The position numbers were made by a program, and so were the translations under genes. Positions 55 to 15,740 of a stretch of 32,993 bases of DNA are shown in pieces. The notes under the pieces were generated by a model. The model worked only from the letters and a program-made list of their open reading frames with translations. It was not told where the DNA came from and did not search any database. The stretch is from Candidatus Pacearchaeota archaeon (lineage in GTDB: Archaea; Nanobdellota; Nanobdellia; Pacearchaeales; GW2011-AR1): NCBI GenBank assembly GCA_017609755.1, contig JAFCDI010000006.1, forward strand, positions 1-32,993, written 5' to 3'. Position 1 is the first letter of the stretch. Each line of letters begins with the position of its first letter.

Positions 55-138
55 ATGTTATTTGAAATTTTATTGTTTCTTTGTTTAGGAATTTTATTTG
101 GAATTTGCACAGGTAAGTGTTGCGGAGATTTTCCATAA
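55..138 (+). pseudogene. Orphaned 5' fragment of TctA-family transporter (host side of left junction); homologous part ends at 114
   Basis: 27-aa ORF MLFEILLFLCLGILFGICTGKCCGDFP; the first 20 aa match the N-terminal TM style and length of the ORF at 14510; TATA-like tctttataaaa about 25 nt upstream. Confidence 0.7.
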
Positions 139-210
139 AAACGCTCTTTCTATGTAAAAAACTTACAAAAAAATTACAAGAAATAAAAAGAAACTCAACT
201 TTGTTTGAGT

Positions 211-678
211 ATGAAAAAAATGAGTTATGATAGGATAGGAAACACTCACATTCGTGAGAATGGCAAGAAAAGAAGTATTTTTGATAAGGTTAACGAGATA
301 AAACAAGACATAAAAACAATTCTTCCAGAAGTAGAGGGTGATAAGCTTATCTCAATGTTAAGCAAAATTAGAACTTATATTTCTCATAAAAAGAAAGGTG
401 TTCCTCTCGGCAGAAGAGGTTGGAAGGGCTACAGAGATCTTACATTTAATGAAAAAGTTCTTTATGAATATCTTCTAAAACACAATCTCTCTCCATCAAC
501 TACTTATCGCTGGTTTATAGCTACTAGAATTCCATCTGATGTTAAAGAAAAACTAGAAAATGGCCAGTTAAGCATGAAAAAAGCTTTTCAAATTTCAGCT
601 AACAGAAGACGAGTAAAAGCAAGCAATACAGGTTTAATGATGATAGAAGAATTAAGAACAATTACAAGAGGTTTATAA
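211..678 (+). CDS. Integrase-associated DNA-binding protein (HTH-like C-terminal half)
   Basis: ATG at 211 (track start at 205 is TTG). HTH-like LSPSTTYRWFIATRIPSDVKEKLENGQLSMKKAFQIS; stop 1 nt before the recombinase ATG. Confidence 0.5.
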   Translation: MKKMSYDRIGNTHIRENGKKRSIFDKVNEIKQDIKTILPEVEGDKLISMLSKIRTYISHKKKGVPLGRRGWKGYRDLTFNEKVLYEYLLKHNLSPSTTYRWFIATRIPSDVKEKLENGQLSMKKAFQISANRRRVKASNTGLMMIEELRTITRGL

Positions 679-679
679 A

Positions 680-1513
680 ATGTCACATAAAAGCAAACTA
701 CCAGATGTATTTAATGTTGAGCAAATCATCCAGCTCTTTGATGCAATGGATAGGCCTAAAGTAGCAATGGCAACAGCTCTTGCTTTTTTCTGTGGATTAA
801 GAATTTCAGAAATATGCAACATGAAAATTGAAGATGTTGATCTTGTTAAACAAAGATTAAAAGTAGTTGATGGCAAAAATAGCAGAAGAAAATTCTCTGG
901 TTATGGCAAAGATAGATATGTACCTATTCCTCCTCAGCTCATAAGCCCATTAAAAAAATGGTTAGAGATTATCCAAGGAGGTAAATGGCTTTTTCCATCT
1001 GATAAATCCCCTGACTCACATATTCGTAAAAAAAGTTTAGGAGAGCAATTTAAACATACCCTAAAACAAGCAAATCTTTTAATCCCAGAAAGAGAAATAG
1101 AATTTAAAACAAGAATCAATGGAAAAAAGCAATCAAAAATAATCATCAGGCATAAATATTATTTCCATACCCTCCGTCACAGCTATGCCACATATCTAAG
1201 AGACAAAGGGGTTGATATTTACACAATCTCTGATCTCCTTGGCCATAGCCAAGTCACAACCACCCAGATTTATGCTAGAATCAGCGACACTCAAAGAACT
1301 AAAGCAATTAATGAAGCATTTAATCATCAGTTCAGCCCCTATCCTAATGGCTACACAACCCCACCAATCCAAACACCACAAATACAAAACTCAAATCCCT
1401 CAGCCCAAAATGAGAAAGATAAACTTTTGGAAATAAAAAAGCTCGAGTTAGAAGTTGAGAAATTGAGGCTGTTAAAAAATCAGGAAAAAGAGGTCATGTG
1501 TGGGGTTGACTGA
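680..1513 (+). CDS. Tyrosine recombinase/integrase (XerC/D-like)
   Basis: CGLRISEI, HTLRHSYATYL, DLLGHSQVTTTQIYARI match the R, HxxR, H, Y catalytic pattern; C-terminal charged coiled-coil tail. Confidence 0.95.
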   Translation: MSHKSKLPDVFNVEQIIQLFDAMDRPKVAMATALAFFCGLRISEICNMKIEDVDLVKQRLKVVDGKNSRRKFSGYGKDRYVPIPPQLISPLKKWLEIIQGGKWLFPSDKSPDSHIRKKSLGEQFKHTLKQANLLIPEREIEFKTRINGKKQSKIIIRHKYYFHTLRHSYATYLRDKGVDIYTISDLLGHSQVTTTQIYARISDTQRTKAINEAFNHQFSPYPNGYTTPPIQTPQIQNSNPSAQNEKDKLLEIKKLELEVEKLRLLKNQEKEVMCGVD

Positions 1514-1589
1514 AATTAAATATAATCCACTAGACCAAAATAAATCCAACCTAAGATAACTTTTTATAACAGTTTTTCTTAATTTAATT

Positions 1590-2450
1590 ATGGATGAGAT
1601 ATTAAAAAATCAATTTAAAAAAAGAATAGAAGTTAGAAAAGAGTCTTCCTTCCAAAAATTTTGTCAAGACCTTCTCTTAAAAAAATTTGGACAAGATTTT
1701 CAGGTCGTTAAAGATAAAAGAGATAAGGGATGTGATGGAATATTAAATCAAGACACCATCATTTCAATATACTCTCCAGAAAAAGAAAATTTAAGGTCCT
1801 TTAAATTAAAGGTAAAGGAAGATTTTGAAAAGTATCAGAAAAACTGGAAACAAAATTATAAAAAATGGTGTTTTGTTTACAATGGTGAATTAACTGCTGA
1901 AAGAATAGGTGTTCTTGACGAAGCATCTCAAGATTGTATGAGGTGGGATATTAACCAAATCTTAGAAATGATAGATGCTTTATCTTATTATAAAATGGAC
2001 CAATTAGCTAAATCTCTTAATATTGACGAAAGTCTAATAATCTATAATGTCTTAAAAAGAGTTATTGAGGATTTAACTAAGGATATAAATATAACTATTA
2101 GCGATGAAAAGGCTCCCCCATATCTACCTAAAAAAGTGAAAGAGAATTATTCTCAAAGTGAACAAGAAGAAGCATTAAAAGAATATGAAGACAATCTACA
2201 ACATATTTTAAAATTACAAGAGATATTGAAACACTTTGATGATAAGCATGTAGCATCGTTAAAGAATAAAGTTAGAACTATTTATAATGCGCTTGGAGGA
2301 AGCTTCAAGAAAAAAATGGATAACCTTGTAAAGATACTTTCTGATGATCGTAAAGAGGACGATCTTTATGTATTTTATGTGAGGATTATAGCACTTTATT
2401 TTTTTGAAAGATGCGTATTAGGTAAAAATCCATCGGAGGTTAAAAAATGA
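1590..2450 (+). CDS. Candidate effector of an ABC-three-component-like conflict system, possible N-terminal restriction-like domain
   Basis: First gene of an ATGA-coupled operon with a small middle component and a DUF2326-type ATPase; N-terminal KDKRDKGCDGILNQDTIISIYSPEK resembles a restriction-fold core; TATA-like ttttataac about 25 nt upstream. Confidence 0.55.
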   Translation: MDEILKNQFKKRIEVRKESSFQKFCQDLLLKKFGQDFQVVKDKRDKGCDGILNQDTIISIYSPEKENLRSFKLKVKEDFEKYQKNWKQNYKKWCFVYNGELTAERIGVLDEASQDCMRWDINQILEMIDALSYYKMDQLAKSLNIDESLIIYNVLKRVIEDLTKDINITISDEKAPPYLPKKVKENYSQSEQEEALKEYEDNLQHILKLQEILKHFDDKHVASLKNKVRTIYNALGGSFKKKMDNLVKILSDDRKEDDLYVFYVRIIALYFFERCVLGKNPSEVKK

Positions 2451-2704
2451 TAAGCCCTCAACCAGAATCTGACTTAACATTGAACATAATTGTCTTAGGT
2501 GCCGATATAATTAAAATTTTGAAAGACAACGGAAAAGTCATGATTGTAGAAAATCTATTAAATAAATTTTTAGCTAAAGATAGTAGAAGAAATTTCTCTC
2601 AATTTTTTGAAACCCTTGCCTTTTTATATACAATCGGATTCATAAATGAAAGGAGGTACAAAGTAAAACTTTTATATGGTGATACTCAAACGAATCTTTT
2701 CTGA
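2447..2704 (+). CDS. ABC-three-component system middle component (MC6-like)
   Basis: 85 aa, starts with ATGA overlap to the preceding gene, overlaps the ATPase; MISPQPESDLTLNIIVLGADIIKILK resembles small middle components. Confidence 0.55.
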   Translation: MISPQPESDLTLNIIVLGADIIKILKDNGKVMIVENLLNKFLAKDSRRNFSQFFETLAFLYTIGFINERRYKVKLLYGDTQTNLF

Positions 2705-4454
2705 AACAGGACTATTTGATACAGTTGAATTTAAACTCGGAATAAATATTATTATGGGTGTCTATTCAAAAGGAGATAAAAAGAGCAGCGGATTAAATGG
2801 AATTGGCAAATCAACTTTAGTTAGACTCATAGATTATATGTTCATATCTACTTCTAAAAAAAACAAATACTTTGATCCAGATACCTATTCTTTCTTAAAA
2901 AAACAAAATGCGATATTAGAATTTGAAGTTGATAAACAAAGCTATTTTATTAAAAGATTTTTTGATGAACCTGACAAGATTTACTTTGGTAAGGATTTGC
3001 TTTCCCTAGAAACCTACAGTGAAAAGGAAATGAAAAATGTGTTGAGTGGATTATTTTTCAATGATGATGATACTAATCTTCATTTTGAAACTGGATGGTT
3101 TAGAGATTTAATCGGGTTTTTTATCAAAGATGATATGGAAACTTTCGATAGAAAAGATACTTTAAATTTTGTTAGTAACTATTCTTCAAAATATGACATC
3201 TATACATACAATCTTTATCTTTTAGGATTGCCTAATGAAGCAGTTTATAGATTCTCCATATTAAGCAGTTCCTTAAAGAATCTTCAGGAAGAAAAGAATA
3301 AGAATATTACTAGACTCGAGGAAGAAACTGGTAAAAAGATAGAAGAAATACAAACAGATCTCGCTGAGATTGAAAGAAGAATTTCTATCTATGAAAAATC
3401 AGCACAAGAAACTTATAAATTCCTTGAACCATATAAAGAAATTGAAGCAAAATTGGTTGAAATATCTCAAGAAATCTCAAAAAAATTGAAGAGATTTTCT
3501 TTTCTCAGAAGAAATTTAGATGAATATAAGAAGAGTTACGAATATGTAGTGGAAATAGATCCAAAAACGATTACAAAAGAGTACATAGAAGTAAAACAAG
3601 TTTTTGGAGATATTGTAAAAAAGAAATTGGATGAAGTTATGAAGTTTAGAAAAACATTGTCTAAAAATAGAAGGATATTTCTGAAAGATAAAGAAATAGA
3701 ACTTGAATCACAAATTAATAAAATATCTGAAACAATTTCAGATTTAGAAGAAAAGAGAGCAGAGCTTTTTGGTCAATTAGAGCAAAAAAAAGCATTAGAC
3801 TCAATCAAAAATTCTTATTTACAACTAATAGAAGAAAAAGCAAAAAAAGTAAGATTATTGACTTTTGTGAACCAAATAGAATCTCTAGAAAAAGACATTT
3901 ATGAAAAAATAGATCAAATAAACGATGCTATACAAAATATTAAAGCTCAATTAAATCCCATTCAAAAACAAATAAATGAGATAACAAACTTGTTCTTTGA
4001 AATCACTAAAACTGTTGTGAGTTCAACAGAGGGAGGGAAAGCTGTATTTACCATAAAACCTTCTCCTGATATGAGATCTCCTCTAAAAATAACAGTTGAA
4101 ATACCAAAATCAAAAGCATTGGGAAAAAGCAGATTTAAAATAATTGTTTATGATCTTTCTGTTTTCTTAAATATTATAAAAAATGAAAGAAAATTGCCAA
4201 ATTTTTTAGTTCATGATGGAGTATTTCATTCTATTGATATAAAGACAATTGTAGATACATTAAATTACGTGAACAGTAAATTTGTGAAATATCAGAACTT
4301 TCAATATATAATAACTGCTAATGAATCCGAAATAACTTTTCCAGATAGTAAAAAAGAATTCTATGGAGAATATGAATTTGATATTGATGATTGCATCAGG
4401 GCAAAATACACTGATGATCCTAAACAGATGTTCTTTAAAAGGTCTTATAATTAA
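2676..4454 (+). CDS. ABC/SMC-like ATPase with DUF2326-type C-terminus
   Basis: Walker A GLNGIGKSTLVRLIDYMF, long coiled coil, C-terminal NFLVHDGVFHSIDIKTIVDTLNYVNSKF. Confidence 0.8.
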   Translation: MVILKRIFSETGLFDTVEFKLGINIIMGVYSKGDKKSSGLNGIGKSTLVRLIDYMFISTSKKNKYFDPDTYSFLKKQNAILEFEVDKQSYFIKRFFDEPDKIYFGKDLLSLETYSEKEMKNVLSGLFFNDDDTNLHFETGWFRDLIGFFIKDDMETFDRKDTLNFVSNYSSKYDIYTYNLYLLGLPNEAVYRFSILSSSLKNLQEEKNKNITRLEEETGKKIEEIQTDLAEIERRISIYEKSAQETYKFLEPYKEIEAKLVEISQEISKKLKRFSFLRRNLDEYKKSYEYVVEIDPKTITKEYIEVKQVFGDIVKKKLDEVMKFRKTLSKNRRIFLKDKEIELESQINKISETISDLEEKRAELFGQLEQKKALDSIKNSYLQLIEEKAKKVRLLTFVNQIESLEKDIYEKIDQINDAIQNIKAQLNPIQKQINEITNLFFEITKTVVSSTEGGKAVFTIKPSPDMRSPLKITVEIPKSKALGKSRFKIIVYDLSVFLNIIKNERKLPNFLVHDGVFHSIDIKTIVDTLNYVNSKFVKYQNFQYIITANESEITFPDSKKEFYGEYEFDIDDCIRAKYTDDPKQMFFKRSYN

Positions 4455-4456
4455 TC

Positions 4457-5104
4457 TCAAACCCCCTCACACCATTCGCAAGTTTTCTTAGGACATTCAC
4501 TATCCAAAAGCTTAAGTGCTGCTCTCCAAACCTTCTCAGCATTTTTAACATCTACTTTCATCTTTACTAGAGTCGTATCAAAAATAACTTCTCCTGTAGC
4601 CATAACTTCCTTAGGAACATAAAATAATAAGAAAAAATAATCTTCTGTTTCATAGCCATTTTTTCTCAGTAAGAAATTATAAACATTTTGTTGGAGTCTA
4701 TAATGTTCAGCAGTATCTTCCTTTAATGCATAACCACGGGTCTTATAATCTAATACAATCAATTTCTTTCCCTTAACTAAAATATTGTCAACTGCTCCAT
4801 GTAATTCATTTCCTTTTTTATCCTTCCAGGAAACACCCTTAAAATTGCTTTGCCAAATTTTCATTTTCTCTTTATCATCAAACAACTTCATATTCTTACA
4901 TTCTCCATTTTCACATAATTCAGGAGGAAGTTGCTTTTTATCTCTGAACTTATCAAAATGATTTTTTAATATTCTATCCATTCCAGAAGGCAAAGAAGGA
5001 AATATCCCAGTAGGCCTTTTCCAAACTTTATGTTGAGTAAGCCAAAAACATCTAGGACATTCTTGCATTAAGTTCAAAGTTGAGGGGGATAGTTTGTAGG
5101 GCAT
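4457..5104 (-). CDS. PD-(D/E)XK nuclease, Cas4/AddB-like with Cys cluster
   Basis: HGAVDNILVKGKKLIVLDYKTRG (D...DYK), HYRLQQNVYNFLL, N-terminal CPRC and C-terminal CPKKTCEWC. Preferred start MPYKLSPSTLN at 5104; the track start is 5134. Confidence 0.8.
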   Translation of the reverse strand: MPYKLSPSTLNLMQECPRCFWLTQHKVWKRPTGIFPSLPSGMDRILKNHFDKFRDKKQLPPELCENGECKNMKLFDDKEKMKIWQSNFKGVSWKDKKGNELHGAVDNILVKGKKLIVLDYKTRGYALKEDTAEHYRLQQNVYNFLLRKNGYETEDYFFLLFYVPKEVMATGEVIFDTTLVKMKVDVKNAEKVWRAALKLLDSECPKKTCEWCEGV

Positions 5105-5105
5105 T

Positions 5106-5336
5106 TTATAAAACACCCCTAATGCTCTTAACAATAAATGGAAGTAAGTATATAATCAATTCTACAGTTAAAAACACTAAAAGAATTGCAATTACTTGTT
5201 CAATTATTTTTAATTCTTTTCTTAATCCAACATAAGTAAAAAGAGGAGTTAAAATTGCAATAATTAACACAATTATCAAGTGCTCTGTATAACCACTTAT
5301 CACAGATTCTTGTGTTCCAAAATGAGTAAAATTCAT
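5106..5336 (-). CDS. Small protein with two predicted TM helices in the helicase-methylase operon
   Basis: Hydrophobic stretches LIIVLIIAILTPLFTYVGL and VIAILLVFLTVELIIYLLPFIV; start overlaps the methylase stop (ATGA); stop 1 nt before the nuclease ATG. Confidence 0.65.
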   Translation of the reverse strand: MNFTHFGTQESVISGYTEHLIIVLIIAILTPLFTYVGLRKELKIIEQVIAILLVFLTVELIIYLLPFIVKSIRGVL

Positions 5337-8300
5337 TTTCCAAACCCCTCAACAATCTTAATTTCTTCTTCAGTTAAACCATAAAGAGCATAAACTAACC
5401 TATCAATTTGCTTTTCATATGCTTTAACCTTTGCTTGTTTTTCTGGATTTTTAAGGTAATCTTCATCTTTAGTGATATCTAAAATTTTATCAACAATTTC
5501 TATTAATGGTTTTTGTTTTATTAGAGGGATTTTTTTGATAGGGATTTCTTTTAATGGTTCGGAATCAATTTGGTATAAATCTCCTTGTATTTTTCCCTTA
5601 TAATATAACCAAAAAGAAATTAATTTAGAGTTTAAGAGAGATATCAAGAATTTTAAACTTATTTTTTTTGTTTTAATAATATAAAAAGTCTGAGATAAAT
5701 AAGTGTCATAATCCGTATAACTAAACGAAGGTTCTTTACATTTTCTTATCGAAATTATTTTTTCTCCATTAAAAAAATCTTCATTTCTAGCCCTATGTAA
5801 TCCATAAGGTTTATTATCTGAAGTAATAATTTCTTTAAAATTATCCAAATGCGCTTTAATTGTTGGATATTTCTTAATTTTCTGTTTGATGTCCGATTTT
5901 GTGTAGATAATCCAAAATTTATTTTTATTATTAAACCAATATTTTGAAATATTCTCTGAAGTATAATATGGTTTAATTAATTCCATTTCCCCTTTCGATA
6001 ATTTTAAATCCTTTAATTCATTTTCTGTTAATACAAAAATTCCTGTTCCAATCTTATATTTATTTGATAATTTCTCCGCGTTAGATTTGTTCAAATTTTC
6101 TTGAGGAGCCACAATACCTTGTGCTAAATCTTCGTTTTGTAAATAAAAATTTCCTACAGCTAAAATTTTCTTTATTATAATTTGTATGTTTTTTCTTAGA
6201 AATGAAAAAGTTTTTCCTCCTGCTAAACTATCTCTGTTAATCAATACATCATATTTTTCATAAAAATAGTTTCCTTTTTGTGCATATAAAAATTGAACTA
6301 ATTGGTTAGTATCTATCTTTGGATTGTTTAATCTAGAGTAAATCATAGGATATTCTATTTCATTCAAATCTTTTTTTAATATATAAACCATTGTCTGAAT
6401 CCCTGCAGTAAAAACCTTGTAATCTCCAAAATCTATAAATTCAAGAATTTTTGTTCTCTCAATAATATTTTTTCTTAAAATAGATGCTCCAAAATTTGTT
6501 CTCCAATTATTAGGAGCTATAAAACATTCAACCCCCCCCTCTTTTAATAGATCTATGCCCATACATCCAAAAAAATACCATAAATCCATTTTACCTTGAT
6601 AGTAAGGAGAGTTCTTTAATCCATCAAATGCACCTTTATTTGTATATTCTTTTACATAAGGAGGATTAGCAATAACTACATCAAATCCAGGATTATCCCT
6701 ATGAAAAACATCAGAAAAGTATAATTTCCATAAGAAAAAAGGTTTAGACTTATTCTTCTTATATTGCTCCAACTTTTTCATGTTTTCTCCATCACCCTGT
6801 TCTCTTAAAGTTTCCTCAATAAACTCCCACTCTATTTTATCAATCTCCTTTTTCAGTATGTTTTTTTGAGTTCTGTTTTCTACATCAAAAAATTCTTTTT
6901 GTTTTTTTCTTAACTCTTTTAACTTTTGTTCTGATTTCTTAATCTTTTTATCAATACTCTGATCTAATGTAACCTGCTTATCTTTTTTCGCCTTAATTTC
7001 TTGTGGATCTATATACAATTTAATTCCTTCAAACTCTTCGATTAAACTATTCCCACACATTATCTTGTTCTCAAGATTTGGAAGCGGTTTAATATTATTC
7101 ATGCCCTCTTCATCTACAATAAGAGAAAGCCAGAATCTCAGTTTTGTAATCTCAACAGCAGAAGGTTCAATATCAACTCCATAAAGAGAATTCTCAATCG
7201 TCTCCCTTTTTAATTCATAATCAGTTTTTGGTTTTTTAAGAAGATAAGATAAAATGGTTCTTGCTTTTATGATCTCATTCATCATTCCTACAGGAAAAGC
7301 TCCAGAACCTACAGCAGGATCACATATCTTAATTTCTGTTAGTAACCTATCTAATTCTTTTGCATTTTGAGAAATAGTTTTGGGTAAAACAAACTCTTTT
7401 TCAGAACTTTTTAACCGACCTATTTCTTGCCTTTTCAAATACTCTAAAGCTAAGTCTCCTTTTTGAACAAAAAAATCCAAGTCCTTTTTAGGAATATCAA
7501 TATTTGTTTCCAAATAATTAATCAAACTCTGTTGACACATATAATGAACAATCTCTCTTGGAGTATAAAAAGCACCTTTAGATTTTCTGTCCTGAACATC
7601 TAATAAATTCTCAAAAACTTTTCCCAGCATTTCAGGATCAACCGCAACTTCTTTCTCTAAAGGTTCATCTTCCTTTATTGTAAAATTAAACTCATCAAAT
7701 GTCATGAAAATTTCTTCAAAAAGATCATTATTAAGATTAATATCAGTTTCACCCCAATTATATCCATTCAAAGGCTCAAACAAACCACCATTCAAAAAAG
7801 GAACCTTACAATTAAATTTTTCATAATAATCTCCATCAGCTCTTCTATCTGTAGCAAGTGCATGATAAAATAAAGGCTCTAAATAGTCATTAAAGAAATT
7901 CTTCTTCTCTTGTTGTGCCTTATAAAATAATTCCTGGATAAATCTTCTGGATCCTTTTCCCCATTGTTCAAACTTTCCTTTTTCTCCTTTTTTAATTCCA
8001 AGCCACCCTTTTTTCTGTAAAAAGTAAAGAAATACAATTTGACCTAAAAGTTTTTTAGCAAAATCTACAGTAGAAATCTGCTTATCTTCAAATTCTTCTT
8101 TAATATTCTTATCTTTCTTAATTAAATAATCTAAACCATCTTTTAAATGATGATATAAATTTTTATATTTCTCAAAGAACTCTTTTGTTACTTTTTCTAT
8201 GCTAAAAGCATTTTCAATTTCATCAATTGAAGGTTTTTGAATTTCTGTTTTTACTAAATCTACAAATTGGCTTCTACATGTATGATTTGGTTCATTAGGA

Positions 8301-8740
8301 CCAACTAAAAAAGAATATCTTTTTGCAGGTGTAAGTTCTTCAGATACTTTTCCATCTTCCATAAGTTTATAATCCATCTTAATAAAAGAAAATCTCCAAT
8401 CAAGAGAATCCTCAGAAATAAAAGCTACAAGAGCAGAATCAATATTAAAATTTTTTAATAATTTAGCAACAACATTCCTTTGCATTGTTCTTGCTCTATC
8501 CAGAGAGATTCCTTTTTTCAACTGAACAATCAGAATCTCCATAGACTTATTATTTTGTTTATAATTTCCAATCTTTTTTATAGATACTATTTTTTCAGCA
8601 TATTCAGAGTGAGGAGATATAAATCTATCCTGAGGATAAAAACCATTAAAGAGTTCTTTTAAAAAATTAGAAAATTTTCCTGGATTAAATTCTGTATTAA
8701 ATGTTTCATCTAATAATTTTCTTGCTTCATTATCATTCAT
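5333..8740 (-). CDS. Eco57I-like class I DNA N6-adenine methyltransferase
   Basis: KICDPAVGSGAFPVGMMNEI (SAM motif), VVIANPPYVKEY (NPPY), KGAFYTPREIVHYM; extra N-terminal domain with MEILIVQLKKG. Confidence 0.9.
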   Translation of the reverse strand: MNDNEARKLLDETFNTEFNPGKFSNFLKELFNGFYPQDRFISPHSEYAEKIVSIKKIGNYKQNNKSMEILIVQLKKGISLDRARTMQRNVVAKLLKNFNIDSALVAFISEDSLDWRFSFIKMDYKLMEDGKVSEELTPAKRYSFLVGPNEPNHTCRSQFVDLVKTEIQKPSIDEIENAFSIEKVTKEFFEKYKNLYHHLKDGLDYLIKKDKNIKEEFEDKQISTVDFAKKLLGQIVFLYFLQKKGWLGIKKGEKGKFEQWGKGSRRFIQELFYKAQQEKKNFFNDYLEPLFYHALATDRRADGDYYEKFNCKVPFLNGGLFEPLNGYNWGETDINLNNDLFEEIFMTFDEFNFTIKEDEPLEKEVAVDPEMLGKVFENLLDVQDRKSKGAFYTPREIVHYMCQQSLINYLETNIDIPKKDLDFFVQKGDLALEYLKRQEIGRLKSSEKEFVLPKTISQNAKELDRLLTEIKICDPAVGSGAFPVGMMNEIIKARTILSYLLKKPKTDYELKRETIENSLYGVDIEPSAVEITKLRFWLSLIVDEEGMNNIKPLPNLENKIMCGNSLIEEFEGIKLYIDPQEIKAKKDKQVTLDQSIDKKIKKSEQKLKELRKKQKEFFDVENRTQKNILKKEIDKIEWEFIEETLREQGDGENMKKLEQYKKNKSKPFFLWKLYFSDVFHRDNPGFDVVIANPPYVKEYTNKGAFDGLKNSPYYQGKMDLWYFFGCMGIDLLKEGGVECFIAPNNWRTNFGASILRKNIIERTKILEFIDFGDYKVFTAGIQTMVYILKKDLNEIEYPMIYSRLNNPKIDTNQLVQFLYAQKGNYFYEKYDVLINRDSLAGGKTFSFLRKNIQIIIKKILAVGNFYLQNEDLAQGIVAPQENLNKSNAEKLSNKYKIGTGIFVLTENELKDLKLSKGEMELIKPYYTSENISKYWFNNKNKFWIIYTKSDIKQKIKKYPTIKAHLDNFKEIITSDNKPYGLHRARNEDFFNGEKIISIRKCKEPSFSYTDYDTYLSQTFYIIKTKKISLKFLISLLNSKLISFWLYYKGKIQGDLYQIDSEPLKEIPIKKIPLIKQKPLIEIVDKILDITKDEDYLKNPEKQAKVKAYEKQIDRLVYALYGLTEEEIKIVEGFGK

Positions 8741-8760
8741 TTTTATGATTAAACTCTTAA

Positions 8761-11700
8761 TTATTTAACTAAATATTCAGACAAGATAACTTCCTTAGGT
8801 CCAGATGTATCTGCCGAGTTAATAGGATTCTTCTTAAAATATTCTTCTGGGACATTCATTTTAATCTTAGCCAATATCTTTAAGGGATTAATCTCTTTTC
8901 TAACTCCATTCCATGTTTTCTTCACTGTGGGTTTTGCCATGCCCCCATCAATTAGCAATTGAACTATATCTTGAAGATAATCTTTGTCTTCATCTGTAAA
9001 TTCTGGGCTTCTCCATATTGCCTTAATCTTTTTGACAAGTCGAAAATCATTACTTCTTCCCCTTCCACCCACATTAATCTCTTCAATATCAAAAACAGCG
9101 TCAAAAGCCTCTTTATTTTTTTCAAGATAATTATAAAACTTCTTATCTAAATGTTGAGGTTTTGTTTTTTCTTCACACTCAAAAATATTAACTGCTTCAG
9201 CCAAATCAAGTTCTTCTGGAACTTTATTTCCATCAACAATAAAGATTTTCCTTAACTTCCCCTTCTTGAAAAAAGTAATCATAGAATTTCCTCTCTCTGC
9301 AAATTTCTTTGAAGTTCTGGATTTTTTAGGCAATTTTTTTATTTTATTGTATAAATCTGGATCCTTATCTCTAATTTCTCTAAGTTTAATTAAATATTTC
9401 AATTCAACATCTTCAGATTCTTCCTCATCTCCAATTAATATTTTTTTAGAATTTAATTTAACAAACAAATCATGAGATTTGATTTCTTCATCAGTCAAGA
9501 TTTTTGCGTCATTCCCTAGCATTTCAATAAAAGCATTTATTTTGTATTCTGCAGCTTCCTTTAACTTTAAAGGGTCATTAATAGGTCCTGCAGGAAAGAA
9601 ATTATAGGTATAAATTTTTTCATGTTTAGAATCGACTCTATTTATTCTTCCAACTCTCTGCATCATTCTAGTTGGATTCCAAGGAATATCATAATTGATC
9701 ACCACATTTGAATTATGTAAATTAATACCTTCAGATAATATATCTGTTGTAATTAAAATACGAATAGTATCTTTTTTTCCTTTTCTTAAATCAAAATTTT
9801 CAATAATTTCTTTCTTAAGTAAATTATTAGAATGGCTTGAGAATGCTCTTACTTTATTCTTCATAGAGGAGGATAATTTTTCCTCTAAATATTCTGCTGT
9901 TTCCCTGGATTCTGTAAAAACAATTACTTTATTTTTTTTAAGAATAGAATCTTTTGACAGTCTTCTTTCAAATTCTTCTAATTTTGGATCATAATTGATA
10001 TCTTTCCACATATTTTGGACCTTATTTAAGGTTTTGAGATCACTTTTTAATTCCTTAATAAATTCTTCATTGAAATCTCCAGAAACATACTCTTTTGCTT
10101 TTTCATTATCAATTAATTCTTGGATAGATTCAAAATCTTCATTGTCTAAATGTTCTAAGATTTTACTAATATATTTTTTGCTAAGATAAACTTTTCCTTT
10201 ATCATAGGCTTCAATAAATTTCTCATGTGATTGAATAAATCTTCCTATGGTTTTTTTAAATGCAAAAAAACTACTTTCTAATCTTTTAAGTAAAACTCCT
10301 TTCATAAATGCGCCCATATTTCTCTGAGAACCTTTTTCTAAGTTAGAAAGTTGTTTTTGATTAATAAGGTATAAAAGAGGAGTATATCTAGCATAGGAAA
10401 ACTTATTAATAATTAAGTCTAAAGTTTTATTAAATATCTTATCTAATTCCTTATCAAAACAATATATAATTGGTTCTGGATCAACAACCTCTGGAAATTT
10501 TAGATTTTGTTGCTTTAAGTCGTCTTCATAATATTTTACAATACTGCTTCTTGTTCTTCTCACCATCAAATATTTTAAAATTTTCTCTCTGATCTCATTT
10601 GCATTTTCTTTAACAATTTCTAAGTATTTATCTTTATGTTCTAATCTATCAAGTCCTTTTAATCTTGATTGTAATTTTTTAAAAAAACCTTCAAGGTCTT
10701 TAACTTCTGGATTTGGTAGAGTAGACTTTCTAGAATTTTGAAATAACTTGATCTGCGAAAGCAAATCAATAGGGGTATTATTCAAAGGTGTTGCCGAGAC
10801 TAAAATAACCCTTTTACCCTTACAAATCCTAAATAAATCCTCATATCTTTCAGTAGTTTCATTTCTAAAACCATGAGATTCGTCGATTATAACAGTTTTA
10901 TATCTTTCAAGATCTTCACTACTAATTTTACCTACCATCCCCCTTGAAAGAAATTTCCTTCTTCTTATTCCAAAATCATCAAATGCACGATTCCATGAAC
11001 CTGGATTTTCTTCATCAAGTAATACTGGTGAAGCAATAACAAGAGTTCCTGCAGAAGCCCCATCCATAAACTCCAATTTTTTTGCTAACATTGTAGCAAT
11101 ATATGTCTTCCCAAGACCAACCACATCTGAAAGAAAAACACCACCATACTCCAATAATTTAGCTCTTGCATCTTTAACAGCATCTACCTGATATTTTAAA
11201 TTCATAAACCTTTCAGGTTTAAAACCATCTTCTTCTAATTGTTCTAAATCTTCATCAACCCGCTCTTTTAGATATTCATAAATAAACTTAAGAAATAAAT
11301 AATAAGGAGAAATTTCATTATTCATCCATGTTTTTGTCTTAATAGTCTGAACATATTTTTCTGAAACTTCTATAGAAGATTCCCATAGATTATTAAAAAA
11401 ATTTAATGCCCATTCATAATCTTCTTTTCTTTTTTCGACTTTATTAATTTCATTTTCCCTGTTTAACCCTGCATCAGTTAAATTACTTGAACCAGTAATA
11501 ACTCTACCTTCATCTCCAAATCCTCCCCCCTTTGAAGTGAAAATATAAATTTTTCCATGCATATCTTGATTTGGAGAAGCATGAATTTTTAATTTACCTG
11601 ATTTAATCCATTCAATAAACTTCTTTGTTCCTTCTTCAACATCAAAGGTATCTTTAGAATTCTCATACTCATTAACAATCTTCTTTTCTAACTCTTCTTT

Positions 11701-11961
11701 AAGTTCTGAGGAAGAATCTTTTAATTCAAATTGATTTTCTCTTGTAGAACTAAGCATATCAAATGTTTGTTGATTTGTATTTATACCCACTAAAATTCTT
11801 ATTTTTTCAACATCTTCTAACCCTTTATATATCCTAAAAAATCCACTTGCATAAAAATATCCTACTAAACAATCAAAAAATTTAGTATTTTTCATTAAAA
11901 TTTTAAAATGATTCTCTAAAGTGTCTTCGCCTTTATTTGTAATAAATGTTGTATCTACCAT
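8761..11961 (-). CDS. SNF2-type helicase with N-terminal phospholipase D-like nuclease domain
   Basis: HGKIYIF...GSSNLTDAGLNRENEIN (HKD/PLD), DVVGLGKTYIATML (Walker A), VIIDESHGF (DEAH-type), DILSEGINLHNSNVVINYDIPWNPTRMMQRVGRINR. Confidence 0.93.
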   Translation of the reverse strand: MVDTTFITNKGEDTLENHFKILMKNTKFFDCLVGYFYASGFFRIYKGLEDVEKIRILVGINTNQQTFDMLSSTRENQFELKDSSSELKEELEKKIVNEYENSKDTFDVEEGTKKFIEWIKSGKLKIHASPNQDMHGKIYIFTSKGGGFGDEGRVITGSSNLTDAGLNRENEINKVEKRKEDYEWALNFFNNLWESSIEVSEKYVQTIKTKTWMNNEISPYYLFLKFIYEYLKERVDEDLEQLEEDGFKPERFMNLKYQVDAVKDARAKLLEYGGVFLSDVVGLGKTYIATMLAKKLEFMDGASAGTLVIASPVLLDEENPGSWNRAFDDFGIRRRKFLSRGMVGKISSEDLERYKTVIIDESHGFRNETTERYEDLFRICKGKRVILVSATPLNNTPIDLLSQIKLFQNSRKSTLPNPEVKDLEGFFKKLQSRLKGLDRLEHKDKYLEIVKENANEIREKILKYLMVRRTRSSIVKYYEDDLKQQNLKFPEVVDPEPIIYCFDKELDKIFNKTLDLIINKFSYARYTPLLYLINQKQLSNLEKGSQRNMGAFMKGVLLKRLESSFFAFKKTIGRFIQSHEKFIEAYDKGKVYLSKKYISKILEHLDNEDFESIQELIDNEKAKEYVSGDFNEEFIKELKSDLKTLNKVQNMWKDINYDPKLEEFERRLSKDSILKKNKVIVFTESRETAEYLEEKLSSSMKNKVRAFSSHSNNLLKKEIIENFDLRKGKKDTIRILITTDILSEGINLHNSNVVINYDIPWNPTRMMQRVGRINRVDSKHEKIYTYNFFPAGPINDPLKLKEAAEYKINAFIEMLGNDAKILTDEEIKSHDLFVKLNSKKILIGDEEESEDVELKYLIKLREIRDKDPDLYNKIKKLPKKSRTSKKFAERGNSMITFFKKGKLRKIFIVDGNKVPEELDLAEAVNIFECEEKTKPQHLDKKFYNYLEKNKEAFDAVFDIEEINVGGRGRSNDFRLVKKIKAIWRSPEFTDEDKDYLQDIVQLLIDGGMAKPTVKKTWNGVRKEINPLKILAKIKMNVPEEYFKKNPINSADTSGPKEVILSEYLVK

Positions 11962-11978
11962 AGAAATAGAATAAAATC

Positions 11979-11992
11979 CTTATATAAAAAGC
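11979..11992 (-). promoter_or_regulatory. TATA-like promoter of the helicase operon
   Basis: Minus-strand TTTTTATATAAGG centred about 25 nt upstream of the ATG at 11961; leaderless layout. Confidence 0.5.
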
Positions 11993-12177
11993 TAACCCTT
12001 TTTTAAGAAATTTTGTTAAAAATAATCAAAAACTTTTAAAACTCCTGAATTTTGGTAAATATGGTAAATTCCCTTTGTAAACACAGCCCCCTTGGTTGTT
12101 GTTTTAAGCCAATTTGGTGCGTTTTTGGTGTTTTTCGTGCTATTCTATGCTTTTTTTAGCAATTTTGCTGTTTTATT

Positions 12178-12327
12178 TTAGTGATTTTTTATTTCCTTTG
12201 CTTTCATAACAACTTCAAGTTGCTTTGCGTTTGGAACTCCACTTGGACTGAATGCTGTGCCCCCGCCTAAGCCTGCTCCTGTTGGTTGGAAACCTTCAAG
12301 AATATAGCTTGGCATTGCTGCTTGCAT
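12178..12327 (-). CDS. Small Gly/Pro-rich ORF (49 aa) not in the ORF track
   Basis: MQAAMPSYILEGFQPTGAGLGGGTAFSPSGVPNAKQLEVVMKAKEIKNH; starts 4 nt after the stop of the upstream wHTH gene, with AGGA before the ATG. Confidence 0.5.
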   Translation of the reverse strand: MQAAMPSYILEGFQPTGAGLGGGTAFSPSGVPNAKQLEVVMKAKEIKNH

Positions 12328-12331
12328 TTTC

Positions 12332-13192
12332 CTAAATCGTATCCTGTGAGAGTAAAGATTTTATAAATTCCATTACTTTTCTAAATTCTTTATCACTAAT
12401 TTTTGTTATCAAATCTCTCAATTTAAAAATTCGTTTAATTTTATCAACAGCGTCGATACCTTTTTCTTCCCACTCTCCACCTACCCCATAACTATCCTCA
12501 ACACACTTATGTTTAAGCCCTAATTTAATTGCTTCTACAGCTATCGGTTCTCTTAACCAGGAAACTTCGCAATAGTTCTGGAAACCAATTGTTGTTGGAT
12601 CACCTATCTTAAGACCAGGATATTTTGTTTCAAGCAAAGTTTTTTTCTCAAGAAATTTCTCAATATTAATCATTTCAGCTATATGGGGGTCGTCTGCTAT
12701 TGTTCTAAAGAAAAAATAGGCCTTACATTGTTTATTAGTCTTATGAAATTTTACTGTAGCATCAATATACGCTAATTTATACCCTATCCAATTCTTAGGA
12801 ATATATTCTATCCACCCATCACTTTTTGTGATTTTTTCTAAAAATACTTTTGGTAATTCGTTCACTAAACATTCAATAACATAGGCGTGACAAGAAAATA
12901 AATTTTTTTGAATTTTTCCTTTTTTGTATGCTTTTAAAATCAATTCTATTTCTCTTCTTCGTTCAGGAATTATCCTATAAATAAATATTTCCTTAGGAAC
13001 ATAATATAATAATCCAAAACGCCTCAATTTTTTAAGAATTTTAGAAACGCCCCCTAAAGTTAATGCAGTTTTTTTAACTAATTCTTTTTGTCCGAGACCA
13101 TATTCATAAATATAAAGTTTCTTTAAAACTTCCATATCTCCTTTATTAAACTTTAATTTATCTAAACTAAAACCAGATTTTTCCTTAGGCAT
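12332..13192 (-). CDS. Winged-helix DNA-binding protein
   Basis: DMEVLKKLYIYEYGLGQKELVKKTALTLGGVSKILKKLRRFGLLYYV (MarR-like wHTH). Start MPKEKSGF at 13192 overlaps the preceding small ORF; the track start 13297 is less likely. Confidence 0.65.
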   Translation of the reverse strand: MPKEKSGFSLDKLKFNKGDMEVLKKLYIYEYGLGQKELVKKTALTLGGVSKILKKLRRFGLLYYVPKEIFIYRIIPERRREIELILKAYKKGKIQKNLFSCHAYVIECLVNELPKVFLEKITKSDGWIEYIPKNWIGYKLAYIDATVKFHKTNKQCKAYFFFRTIADDPHIAEMINIEKFLEKKTLLETKYPGLKIGDPTTIGFQNYCEVSWLREPIAVEAIKLGLKHKCVEDSYGVGGEWEEKGIDAVDKIKRIFKLRDLITKISDKEFRKVMEFIKSLLSQDTI

Positions 13193-13358
13193 TTCCACCC
13201 CCAATCTCTTTAATAAAGATAATATTTGTCTTATTGATTCGGAAACAGTTACCATCTTCTGTTCTAAAAGAAATAAAGAGATCATCCTCTCCAACAATCA
13301 TCCCCCATAATAATTTTGTCTTTCCACTATCTTCGTATACAAGCTTAGTTTTTCCCAT
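13185..13358 (-). CDS. Small (57 aa) predicted beta-rich protein, not in the ORF track
   Basis: MGKTKLVYEDSGKTKLLWGMIVGEDDLFISFRTEDGNCFRINKTNIIFIKEIGGGNA; strong Shine-Dalgarno AGGAGGAGATAAGAATG; overlaps both neighbours. Confidence 0.55.
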   Translation of the reverse strand: MGKTKLVYEDSGKTKLLWGMIVGEDDLFISFRTEDGNCFRINKTNIIFIKEIGGGNA

Positions 13359-13545
13359 TCTTATCTCCTCCTAAAACTTTTTTATGAATATCTTGAATCA
13401 GTTTAAGCATCACAAGATCCTCTTTTAACATCAAATCCCTAACAAACTGAGAAAGAGTTTTATATCCTGCGTGATCCTTTCTCAACAAAACTCTATCATA
13501 CTGCCTTTCAGTCAATCTAACCTGGACTACTCTATTTCTGCACAT
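13345..13545 (-). CDS. Ribbon-helix-helix (CopG/Arc-like) regulator
   Basis: VVQVRLTERQYDRVLLRKDHAGYKTLSQFVRDLML is the RHH strand-helix-turn-helix pattern. Confidence 0.7.
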   Translation of the reverse strand: MCRNRVVQVRLTERQYDRVLLRKDHAGYKTLSQFVRDLMLKEDLVMLKLIQDIHKKVLGGDKNGKN

Positions 13546-13682
13546 CTTAACTTATCCTCTAAAGAATCTAAATGCTGACAAACAATGCTTCTCAAAAAAG
13601 CGCTAATAGAAATATGGTTCTCCTTACAAAGCTCTATTAATCTCTTTCCTTCTTCCTCCTTAAGTATAGTTTGCACACGCAT
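13527..13682 (-). CDS. Second small RHH-like regulator (51 aa), not in the ORF track
   Basis: MRVQTILKEEEGKRLIELCKENHISISAFLRSIVCQHLDSLEDKLRCAEIE; overlaps the next RHH gene by 19 nt. Confidence 0.55.
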   Translation of the reverse strand: MRVQTILKEEEGKRLIELCKENHISISAFLRSIVCQHLDSLEDKLRCAEIE

Positions 13683-13767
13683 AGTATATCATAGTATAAA
13701 TTGTTTTTACAAATTTGCAGTCTGCAAAATAAAGATTTATATAGTAGGCTTGACTAAAGAATAGTAT
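13681..13767. promoter_or_regulatory. Divergent operator/promoter region
   Basis: Perfect dyad TTTGCAG-T-CTGCAAA at 13714-13728; ATAGTATA at 13681-13688 and 13691-13698, ATAGTAT near 13761; TATA-like gatttatatag about 25 nt before ATG 13766. Confidence 0.6.
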
Positions 13768-14347
13768 GGTTAAGGATAAATATGCAATTAGAAAAAAAAT
13801 AATATTAAGTTCAAGAAACTACAGATTAGATATTCCTACACTAATAATGAAAGGTATGGGGTGGTCTTCTGACGAAGTTGAGATAATCCCAAACCCAGAC
13901 GAAAATATTATCACTCTAAAAAACCCTTCAAAGAAAGCTGCAGGTTTCACTGGATTTCGCTTAAATGTGCAAGATGCAAAATGGGAAAAGAATAAGAAAA
14001 AATATCAAAGAAACCTTTCAAAAAATTTATCGCCAGAAGGAAGAAAAATTTTACATTCAACTGATTGGAAAAATGTAGAAGATGGAGGATATTGTATCAT
14101 CAGAAATGGTTTTGATTTCATTAAGGGATTAAATAATTTAATTAAAAAAGGTCCAAAAGAATTAAGAGATGTACACAAATCTATGAAAGAAACCCATGTT
14201 TGGTATCTTAAAGAACTGTTAAAATATCTTGAAAAAAAGAAAGTCAAAAAACCCAAATGGTTTTGGAAATATGAAAAAGAATTGATAGGCAAGGAAGAAC
14301 AAGAAAAAAGATTAAAAAACTTAAAAAAAACCACCAAAAACCCCTAA
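13766..14347 (+). CDS. AbrB/SpoVT-like N-terminal domain protein with basic C-terminal region
   Basis: IRKKIILSSRNYRLDIPTLIMKGMGWSSDEVEIIPNPDENIITLKNPSKK resembles the AbrB swapped-hairpin pattern. Confidence 0.45.
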   Translation: MVKDKYAIRKKIILSSRNYRLDIPTLIMKGMGWSSDEVEIIPNPDENIITLKNPSKKAAGFTGFRLNVQDAKWEKNKKKYQRNLSKNLSPEGRKILHSTDWKNVEDGGYCIIRNGFDFIKGLNNLIKKGPKELRDVHKSMKETHVWYLKELLKYLEKKKVKKPKWFWKYEKELIGKEEQEKRLKNLKKTTKNP

Positions 14348-14509
14348 ATCCTCTCAAAATTAGTCCAGGAATCCACCTTATGTAACAACATTTAAAAAAG
14401 CCAGCGTCTATAAAATGGTAGAAAGAGCAACCAATAACCACAAAAGAAAAGTCAGATTTGGTAGCCAACAAATTAAGCAAAAAAAGATAGGCTGGAGGTC
14501 CTGAAACCC

Positions 14510-15740
14510 ATGTTATTAGCCCTTTTAGCCGCTCTATTGCTTGGTGTGGCTTCCGGGACTATTACAGGTTTAATTCCTGGAATTCATATAAATCTCATAG
14601 GTGTTTTTTTAATTTCACTGACAGCTTCTTTTCTCTCTTTTATAAATCCTATTTATTTTGTAGTTTTTATTGTTTCAATGGCTAATGGCTATAACTCACA
14701 CTTTTATTGATTTTATTCCTTCAATTTTTCTTGGATGTCCAGATACAGAAACAGAACTTTCTATTTTACCAGGACATGAACTATTAAAAAAAGGAAGAGG
14801 ATATGAAGCAATAACTCTAACAGCTTATGGAAGTTTAGCAGCAATATTTGTTTTATTATTAATAGCTCTTCCAATAACTGCTTTTTTAGAAAAATTTTAT
14901 GATTTTATAAAAATATTAATTCCTGGTTTGCTGATTTTAGCTTCATTTTTTCTTATTTCTTCTGAAAAAAAGAAAATAAATGCTCTAATTGTTTTTCTTT
15001 TAACAGGAATTTTAGGTTTTTTAGTATTAAATTTAGAAATAAAAGAACCTCTTCTACCTTTATTAACTGGTTTATTTGGAAGTTCTATGCTAATAATAAG
15101 TATTAGAGATAAAATTTCAATTCCAAAACAAAAAATATCAAAATCCAAAATAAAATTATTTCAGCCTCTTTTAGGTGCTACTTTTGCCTCTCCACTTTGT
15201 AGTTTTTTGCCTGGATTAGGAAGTGGACAAGCAGCAATAATTGGAAATACTTTTTTCAAGATTCTTTTTTCAAAAACTTCTCAAGCTAGAGATAAAGATG
15301 CAAATAGAAAAAACTTTCTAATTTTACTAGGAGCAACAAACACTTTAGTGATGGGAGTCTCGTTTCTAGCTTTATATGCAATTGCAAGAACAAGAACAGG
15401 AGCAACAGTAGCTATCTCTCAAATTATAGGAATTATGTCTAAAGAAATTTTAATACTTTCACTAGCAATTATTTTAATTTCAGGAATTGCCTCTTTTTTT
15501 CTAACTCTAAAATTAGCAAAATTTCTTTCAAAGAAAATCTCTAAAATAAATTACTCTCTACTTTGTGAATTAACATTAATTGTTTTAATTCTAATTGTTT
15601 TTCTGGTTTCAGGATTCTGGGGATTGTTAGTTTTAGCAGCCTCAACAATTTTAGGAATTTATTGTATTTCTCTTGGAGTTCGTAGAACAAATATGATGGG
15701 CTGCTTGCTTCTTCCAGTACTTATTTTATATCTTTTCTAG
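14510..15740 (+). pseudogene. TctA-family (COG1784-like) permease, N-terminus supplied by the element, frameshifted by a 7-bp duplication
   Basis: ORFs 14510-14710 and 14670-15740 are one protein in two frames. Removing one ATGGCTA copy (14678-14684 / 14685-14691) restores ...VVFIVSMAITHTFIDFIPSIFLGCPDTETELSILPGHELLKKG... Confidence 0.85.

Follow-up and report, generated by a model that had tools for sequence, protein, structure and literature searches.

How does one archaeal gene come to have two start regions, one at either side of about 14.5 kb of DNA? The question is raised by the window analyzed here, which is the entire contig C21 (32,993 bp; JAFCDI010000006.1) of a Pacearchaeota-like DPANN genome of 23 contigs and 545,648 bp (546 kb). 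An orphan TctA start opening at position 55 (MLFEILLFLCLGILFGICTG) and a second TctA start at 14510 (opening MLLALLAALLLGVASGTITGLIPG; also given as MLLALLAALLLGVASGTITGLIPGIH) both reach the sequence ACAGGT at codons 19-20. With high probability, an integrative element was inserted here by its own tyrosine recombinase into the host gene tctA, at the Thr-Gly codons 19-20 of a conserved G-x-x-x-T-G-L-I-P-G segment. It belongs to a new family of tctA-targeting integrative elements in DPANN archaea; integration at the 5′ end of a gene with replacement of the gene start is already known from SXT/R391. The features that define the locus are as follows:

55-114, plus strand: orphan host tctA 5′ end, codons 1-20, left by integration; core at its end; same as the end of contig C22
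109-114, plus strand: left core copy ACAGGT (putative attL), same as 14564-14569; core pairs match in 10/11 related elements
115-14563, no strand: integrated element, absent at tctA in relatives; the joined flanks restore MLFEILLFLCLGILFGICTGLIPGIHINLIG...
14510-14563, plus strand: element-borne replacement tctA 5′ end (GGAGGT Shine-Dalgarno sequence at 14496-14501, ATG, 18 codons)
14546-14563, plus strand: conserved element-side motif adjoining the core (GTGGCTTCCGGGACTATT), common even to non-coding right ends
14564-14569, plus strand: right core copy ACAGGT (putative attR), same as 109-114
14570-15740, plus strand: tctA body (PF01970, E 7.7e-40), frame-shifted by a 7-bp tandem duplication

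Evidence for an Insertion in tctA

The run common to both junctions is exactly 6 bp. Taken by itself, a match of this length says little when both sequences are starts from one gene family, as the conserved Thr-Gly codons dictate four of the six bases; what raises it above chance is the linkage to contig C22, the presence of element-free tctA genes in relatives, the agreement of all 13 left junctions in the family described below and the matched cores in 10 of 11 element pairs. The last 113 bp of C22, from the same genome, are 100% identical to positions 1-113 of the window, and toward this shared end C22 carries genes for an M16 peptidase, a TGS/GTPase protein and TyrRS; the TyrRS gene is divergent from the tctA start. 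M16-TGS-TyrRS are the ancestral left neighbors of tctA. On the other side, G007 has orf15744, CYTH and ACS behind tctA, the very arrangement that the window shows downstream of 15740. The relatives keep the order M16-TGS-TyrRS/tctA-CYTH-ACS unbroken, so the block 115-14563 is an insertion and not ancestral chromosome. Its size is 14,455 bp, that is 115-14563 plus one core copy. The predicted joined empty site reads ...GGAATTTGCACAGGTTTAATTCC... and the predicted circle junction ...GGGACTATTACAGGTAAGTGTTGC..., and no tRNA was found in the window as a possible target. As far as comparison of sequences can carry it, the insertion, its exact junctions and the restored empty site can be regarded as demonstrated.

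These results bear out most of a preliminary description made from the same DNA, which had proposed that an integrative element of ~14.5 kb lies here, bounded by two junctions in tctA and with a tyrosine recombinase at its left end. The junctions are exact, the joined flanks restore TctA, the recombinase is recovered by PF00589 (9e-28) with its catalytic residues intact, and on re-reading of the sequence both tctA starts and both ACAGGT copies lie at the positions it had given. It had further suggested a search for uninterrupted tctA genes in relatives, and such genes are present: G001, of the same genus, G041 and further relatives share the gene order, with M16-TGS-TyrRS divergent from an unbroken tctA, and element-free tctA also occurs elsewhere in the family; the possibility it had named against itself, that the block is shared ancestral chromosome, does not agree with the relatives' arrangement, from which 115-14563 is absent.

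At the right end, the element-borne stretch 14510-14563 stands in for the native tctA codons 1-18 and supplies a new hydrophobic first segment of TctA (MLLALLAALLLGVASGTI); similar right ends occur in G223 and G025. Further into the gene, ATGGCTA is found twice at 14678-14691, a 7-bp tandem duplication that breaks the tctA frame relative to G001 and other relatives and that may be a real mutation or an assembly fault.

A Family of Elements at the Same tctA Codons

Homologues of the recombinase together with the open reading frame (ORF) preceding it, here called the partner ORF (orf205), were found in 12 further genomes. After removal of duplicates this gives 13 distinct loci: the window, G223, G009, G025, G226, G227, G219, G043, G382, G480, G280, G251 and G303. 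They include records from Candidatus Pacearchaeota (JACPLS010000040.1, G223; JACPLT010000014.1, G025), Candidatus Woesearchaeota (PFNQ01000054.1, G226; JACPIJ010000031.1, G227) and Nanoarchaeota (JAHIWS010000020.1, G009). Among the first 112 genomes, close relatives of the recombinase (680-1513) were restricted to G009 and G025, where they lie on the contig of tctA, upstream of it and on the same strand; the partner ORF was the better family marker, with matches in 6 of the 200 genomes from the order and a tight group in the phylum.

All 13 loci carry an in-frame tctA 5′ fragment directly upstream of orf205 that ends at Thr-Gly (ACNGGN) and is followed by an in-frame stop after at most nine codons, in eight loci after at most one. 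Right ends could be located for 11 of the 13 elements, and joining the left and right flanks restored a proper TctA start in every one of them. The core varies among hosts at two wobble positions (ACAGGT, ACAGGC, ACCGGC, ACCGGA, ACTGGA), yet its two copies agree in 10 of the 11 pairs (permutation of right versus left cores, P 8.5e-5). To the left of the core there is no match in 7/11 pairs, and the rightward match stops exactly after the six core bases in 8/11. Complete elements on single contigs are available from five genomes, namely the window (14.46 kb) and, from coordinates, G009 (~19.6 kb), G025 (~12.5 kb), G227 (~16.5 kb) and G280 (~21.3 kb), the last on a 1.47-Mb contig that carries both junctions. 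The existence of the family and its tctA target are well documented by these loci, and the alignments establish that at least 12 related elements, differing in cargo, target the same two tctA codons. The preliminary description had correctly read a single integration in tctA; the related elements at the same codons, the two-gene integrase unit and the tctA frameshift had escaped it.

The Recombinase and Its Partner ORF

The two genes at the left end of the element are:

211-678, plus strand: partner ORF orf205, 155 residues from ATG at 211 or 157 residues from TTG at 205; helix-turn-helix (HTH)-like
680-1513, plus strand: tyrosine recombinase, catalytic domain only, with a C-terminal coiled helix (PF00589, 9e-28)

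The recombinase has 277 residues, of which R41, K77, H163, R166, H189 and Y198 are invariant (alignment A4), and its fold corresponds to XerA (5hxy, E 5e-9). It matches the XerA, XerC and XerD models only from positions 90, 99 and 97 on, respectively, which indicates that the core-binding domain is missing from this protein. Simple tyrosine recombinases are defined by a core-binding plus a catalytic domain (PMC8138268). The enzyme of the window falls outside these simple (Xer-like) recombinases, which have both domains in one chain. The recombinases of G025, G227, G251 and G303 bear an extra N-terminal piece of ~70-100 residues.

The partner ORF lies directly upstream of the recombinase gene in all 13 tctA-linked elements and abuts or overlaps it in nearly all of them; it has no match in Pfam, NCBIfam or PHROG. 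A pattern scan of IMG/VR and searches of INPHARED phages and PLSDB plasmids did not find it, and a viral origin of the element gains no support from its absence from IMG/VR and INPHARED. Some 20 further loci in the class (including L128-L140) form a second, distant group that combines a partner of ~130 residues with a catalytic-only recombinase and has no tctA fragments; two of its loci lie near tRNA genes, tRNA-Arg (L131) and tRNA-Pro (L132), and the recombinase tree separates the group with a support of 0.995.

Since the recombinase consists of the catalytic domain only, a role in site recognition is most likely for the partner ORF, which would be co-transcribed with it. A wider proposal, which we put forward tentatively, is that of a two-protein tyrosine recombinase, in which a catalytic-only chain would act with a separate, translationally coupled HTH-like recognition protein; the tctA family and the second group, aimed at other sites, would both use it, and the target gene and the integrase operon would exchange promoters on integration. 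It is quite possible instead that the recombinase works alone, as ordinary one-protein enzymes do, and that the partner ORF serves in excision or regulation and not in recognition: directionality factors and regulators commonly adjoin integrase genes, and an HTH-like region in the partner ORF would suit such a role. Excision factors are usually variable, however, whereas the partner ORF is kept with the recombinase, always directly upstream, in the 13 tctA elements and in the distant second group, and the recombinase itself begins at the catalytic domain.

The Attachment Site

The preliminary description had seen in the inverted arms GGAATT/AATTCC around the core the geometry expected of a tyrosine-recombinase attB. 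This signature has to be rejected. The arms match at 6/6 positions in the window, at 3-5/6 in the other 10 sites and at a mean of 3.6/6 (range 2-6) in 25 uninterrupted tctA genes; they are thus not conserved among the 11 sites and are codon background, because they are made by glycine and isoleucine-proline codons. Conservation is instead seen in the pair of Thr-Gly codons and, directly before the core, in an element-side motif like GTGxxTTCCxGGxA. In the 18 bp before the right core, the three non-coding right ends, two of which (G009 and G480) look related, match the coding ones at 8.6/18 positions, compared with 4.8/18 for shuffled sequences (none of 2000 reached the observed value) and 5.5/18 for native genes. 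This is suggestive of a recombinase recognition half-site that would double as coding sequence in most elements.

Just before the left core at L126 and L127, 24-26 bases (GTGGCTTCCGGGGTTTTTACAGGC) are identical between tctA start fragments that belong to two different families; this stretch is GC-rich, resembles the right-end motif of the window and perhaps represents footprints of earlier integrations. The native tctA start of G010 also resembles the motif, and its candidacy as a hidden element was rejected, there being no recombinase pair upstream.

Proposed Mechanism and Mobility

From the gene arrangement we infer a promoter swap together with the two-protein integrase. Recombination across the ~6-bp core would place the partner ORF and the recombinase gene behind the host tctA promoter and codons 1-20 of tctA, which an in-frame stop closes. 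At the right end, in 8 of 11 cases, the tctA body would receive a new ribosome-binding site, a new start codon and a new first helix from the element. The host tctA promoter would drive the integrase operon as long as the element is integrated; in the circle the right-end promoter of the element would do so.

Two observations bear on movement. G043 and G219 are different genera with differing tctA start fragments, but they hardly differ in their orf205 regions: the contig ends (L093:1-160, L094:1-160) share 141 bp within orf205 and overlap the element contig L092 by 112 bp, which points to closely similar elements in the two hosts. Moreover, C22 breaks at base 113, inside the core (109-114). 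Such a break would be expected if the DNA to the right of the core were different in some cells, so it gives an indication of a population mixed at this site.

In the same genus, the core (CAGGC) forms the very beginning of the tctA contig of G002 (L038, which is G002:C31 on the minus strand, end at 8077). This site is possibly also mixed; in that bin TyrRS lies elsewhere and the recombinase pair was not found.

Several points weigh against this account. The break lies at base 113, and not 114, so that the alternative path either departs from the predicted empty site at base 114 or is something else, and the evidence for mobility in this population consists of assembled contigs. The cores of G043 differ at the last base (T versus C), and G382 is without a matching right end, the tctA found there having AGCGGG. 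While the window, G223, G025, G226, G280, G043, G303 and G251 supply a new ATG and a hydrophobic first segment, the other 3/11 right ends (G009, G227, G480) supply no start and have stops or no in-frame ATG just before the core; in the window, tctA is frame-shifted, so that the replacement start gives no full-length TctA as assembled. As for the partner ORF, its AF2 model (pLDDT 73.5) finds no confident match to any known DNA-binding fold: there is no PDB match at E below 1, and the weak hits, all KorB/ParB-like, do not identify an Xer-like core-binding domain. Both promoter use and the function of this ORF are conjectured from sequence.

Could the locus have arisen without any mobile element? 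Ordinary recombination might have brought defense genes together between TyrRS and tctA, and the two tctA starts would then be the remnant of a duplicated gene. The cargo is indeed rich in defense genes, and L041, L044 and L045 contain 2-4 kb of extra DNA between TyrRS and tctA. In these three loci, however, the tctA starts are intact and the extra DNA is unrelated to the tctA-element integrase, whereas the junctions of the elements are exact at the same codons in 13 genomes, always next to the same recombinase pair and with the core matched at both ends. A defense island of this kind is highly improbable, and the 13/13 left junctions strongly disfavor it. Equally improbable is an assembly chimera wrongly joining the element, or the tctA start of another strain, to this genome: it would accord with the metagenomic origin of the assembly, the start of C21 inside the TyrRS/tctA region with an overlap to C22 of exactly 113 bp and the 7-bp duplication in tctA, but the same architecture is found on single contigs of independent assemblies, including the G280 contig with both junctions.

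Cargo of the Elements

Between the recombinase and the replacement start, the integrated element carries the following genes:

1590-2450, plus strand: Mrr-like nuclease candidate of an ABC-3C/Lamassu-like set (PF04471, 0.006, below cut-off)
2447-2704, plus strand: candidate middle component (MC6-like) of the ABC-3C/Lamassu-like set (PF20293, 2e-5, just below cut-off)
2676-4454, plus strand: SMC/Rad50-like ATPase with DUF2326 (PF10088, 4.5e-22; PADLOC PDC-M68B, 1.8e-60, and LmuB, 7e-16)
4457-5134, minus strand: Cas4-like PD-(D/E)XK nuclease (PF12705, 3.9e-9)
5333-8740, minus strand: type IIG restriction enzyme-methyltransferase (PF07669, 3e-32; PADLOC REase_MTase_IIG, 1.6e-186)
8761-11961, minus strand: HKD/PLD protein with SNF2 helicase (PF13091, PF00271; PADLOC HKD+Snf2, 2.5e-40)
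12332-13297, minus strand: putative winged-HTH regulator (sequence inspection; no family match)
13345-13545, minus strand: ribbon-helix-helix protein, NikA/MobC-like (PF21983, 0.005, below cut-off)
13766-14347, plus strand: protein of 193 residues, no family above cut-off

The candidate Lamassu/ABC-3C-like set, the Cas4-like, type IIG and HKD-SNF2 genes and the DNA-binding regulators agree with the earlier view that the cargo consists mostly of conflict and regulatory genes, and the benefit to the host probably comes from the defense cargo. The Cas4-like gene recurs in the tctA elements of three hosts, at L081:10655-11302 and L147:5574-6239 besides the window, with differing neighbors; its identity to the window copy is 89% in G009 and 56% in G227. 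Solo Cas4 genes next to restriction systems have been noted in DPANN before (PMC5704561). Similar ribbon-helix-helix genes occur in the elements of G025, G219 and G480. As further cargo, G009 carries a type III-like restriction-modification system together with its Cas4-like gene, G226 a type IV secretion system (T4SS) pilin, and G280 a T4SS pilin and a VirB4/TraG-like ATPase (candidate conjugation genes, L145:11368-15535) along with type I restriction-modification. Family scans of the window proteins found no conjugation genes. As conjugation genes appear in some members only, the element of the window is not itself an integrative conjugative element (ICE).

Comparison With Known Systems

SXT supplies its target with a new promoter and N-terminus. 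The tctA elements resemble it in providing a new start, which is present in 8/11 right ends and in the window is predicted from the Shine-Dalgarno sequence, the ATG and the 18 codons at 14496-14563. The SXT/R391 ICEs of Gammaproteobacteria have their site in prfC and integrate by a tyrosine recombinase at the 5′ end of this conserved protein-coding gene (PMC4344509), and the tctA elements share integration at the 5′ end of a protein-coding gene. They differ from SXT/R391 in their small size, their archaeal hosts, the unrelated target and the catalytic-only recombinase with its fixed partner ORF, whereas SXT has a separate xis.

By profile and fold, the catalytic domain is closest to XerA among the simple tyrosine recombinases. 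Sites of the dif type have a 6-bp core, as the tctA elements do. In contrast to XerA, the recombinase of the tctA elements is without the core-binding domain, the XerA model being matched only from position 90. The SSV-/pNOB8-type integrases are likewise archaeal, and the SSV type is also in two parts, being split into N- and C-terminal parts on integration (PMC8371274); the tctA elements, however, keep two separate intact genes when integrated and target a protein gene instead of a tRNA gene.

In Thaumarchaeota, 14 of 68 mapped elements lie in protein genes, all at 3′-distal regions (PMC6563490). These elements are similar in having archaeal tyrosine recombinases and short attachment sites checked against empty sites (PMC6563490), but their insertions are 3′-distal, whereas the tctA elements strike and replace the 5′ end. 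A review of archaeal tyrosine recombinases makes no mention of DPANN, Nanoarchaeota or tctA. In the open-access literature we found no description of tctA as an integration target and no paper on integrases or mobile elements of Woesearchaeota or Pacearchaeota.

Significance for DPANN Archaea

Integrative elements of DPANN archaea are little described. In the present family the attachment codon is fixed and predictable, the boundaries are complete in five genomes, and the cargo is for defense, restriction or conjugation. The orphan tctA start provides a search handle for mobile DNA in fragmented DPANN genomes. The family furthermore allows one to test if a tyrosine recombinase is able to function when another chain carries its recognition part, and it adds an archaeal case of 5′-end gene replacement, the reverse of the 3′-end habit of the thaumarchaeal elements (PMC6563490).

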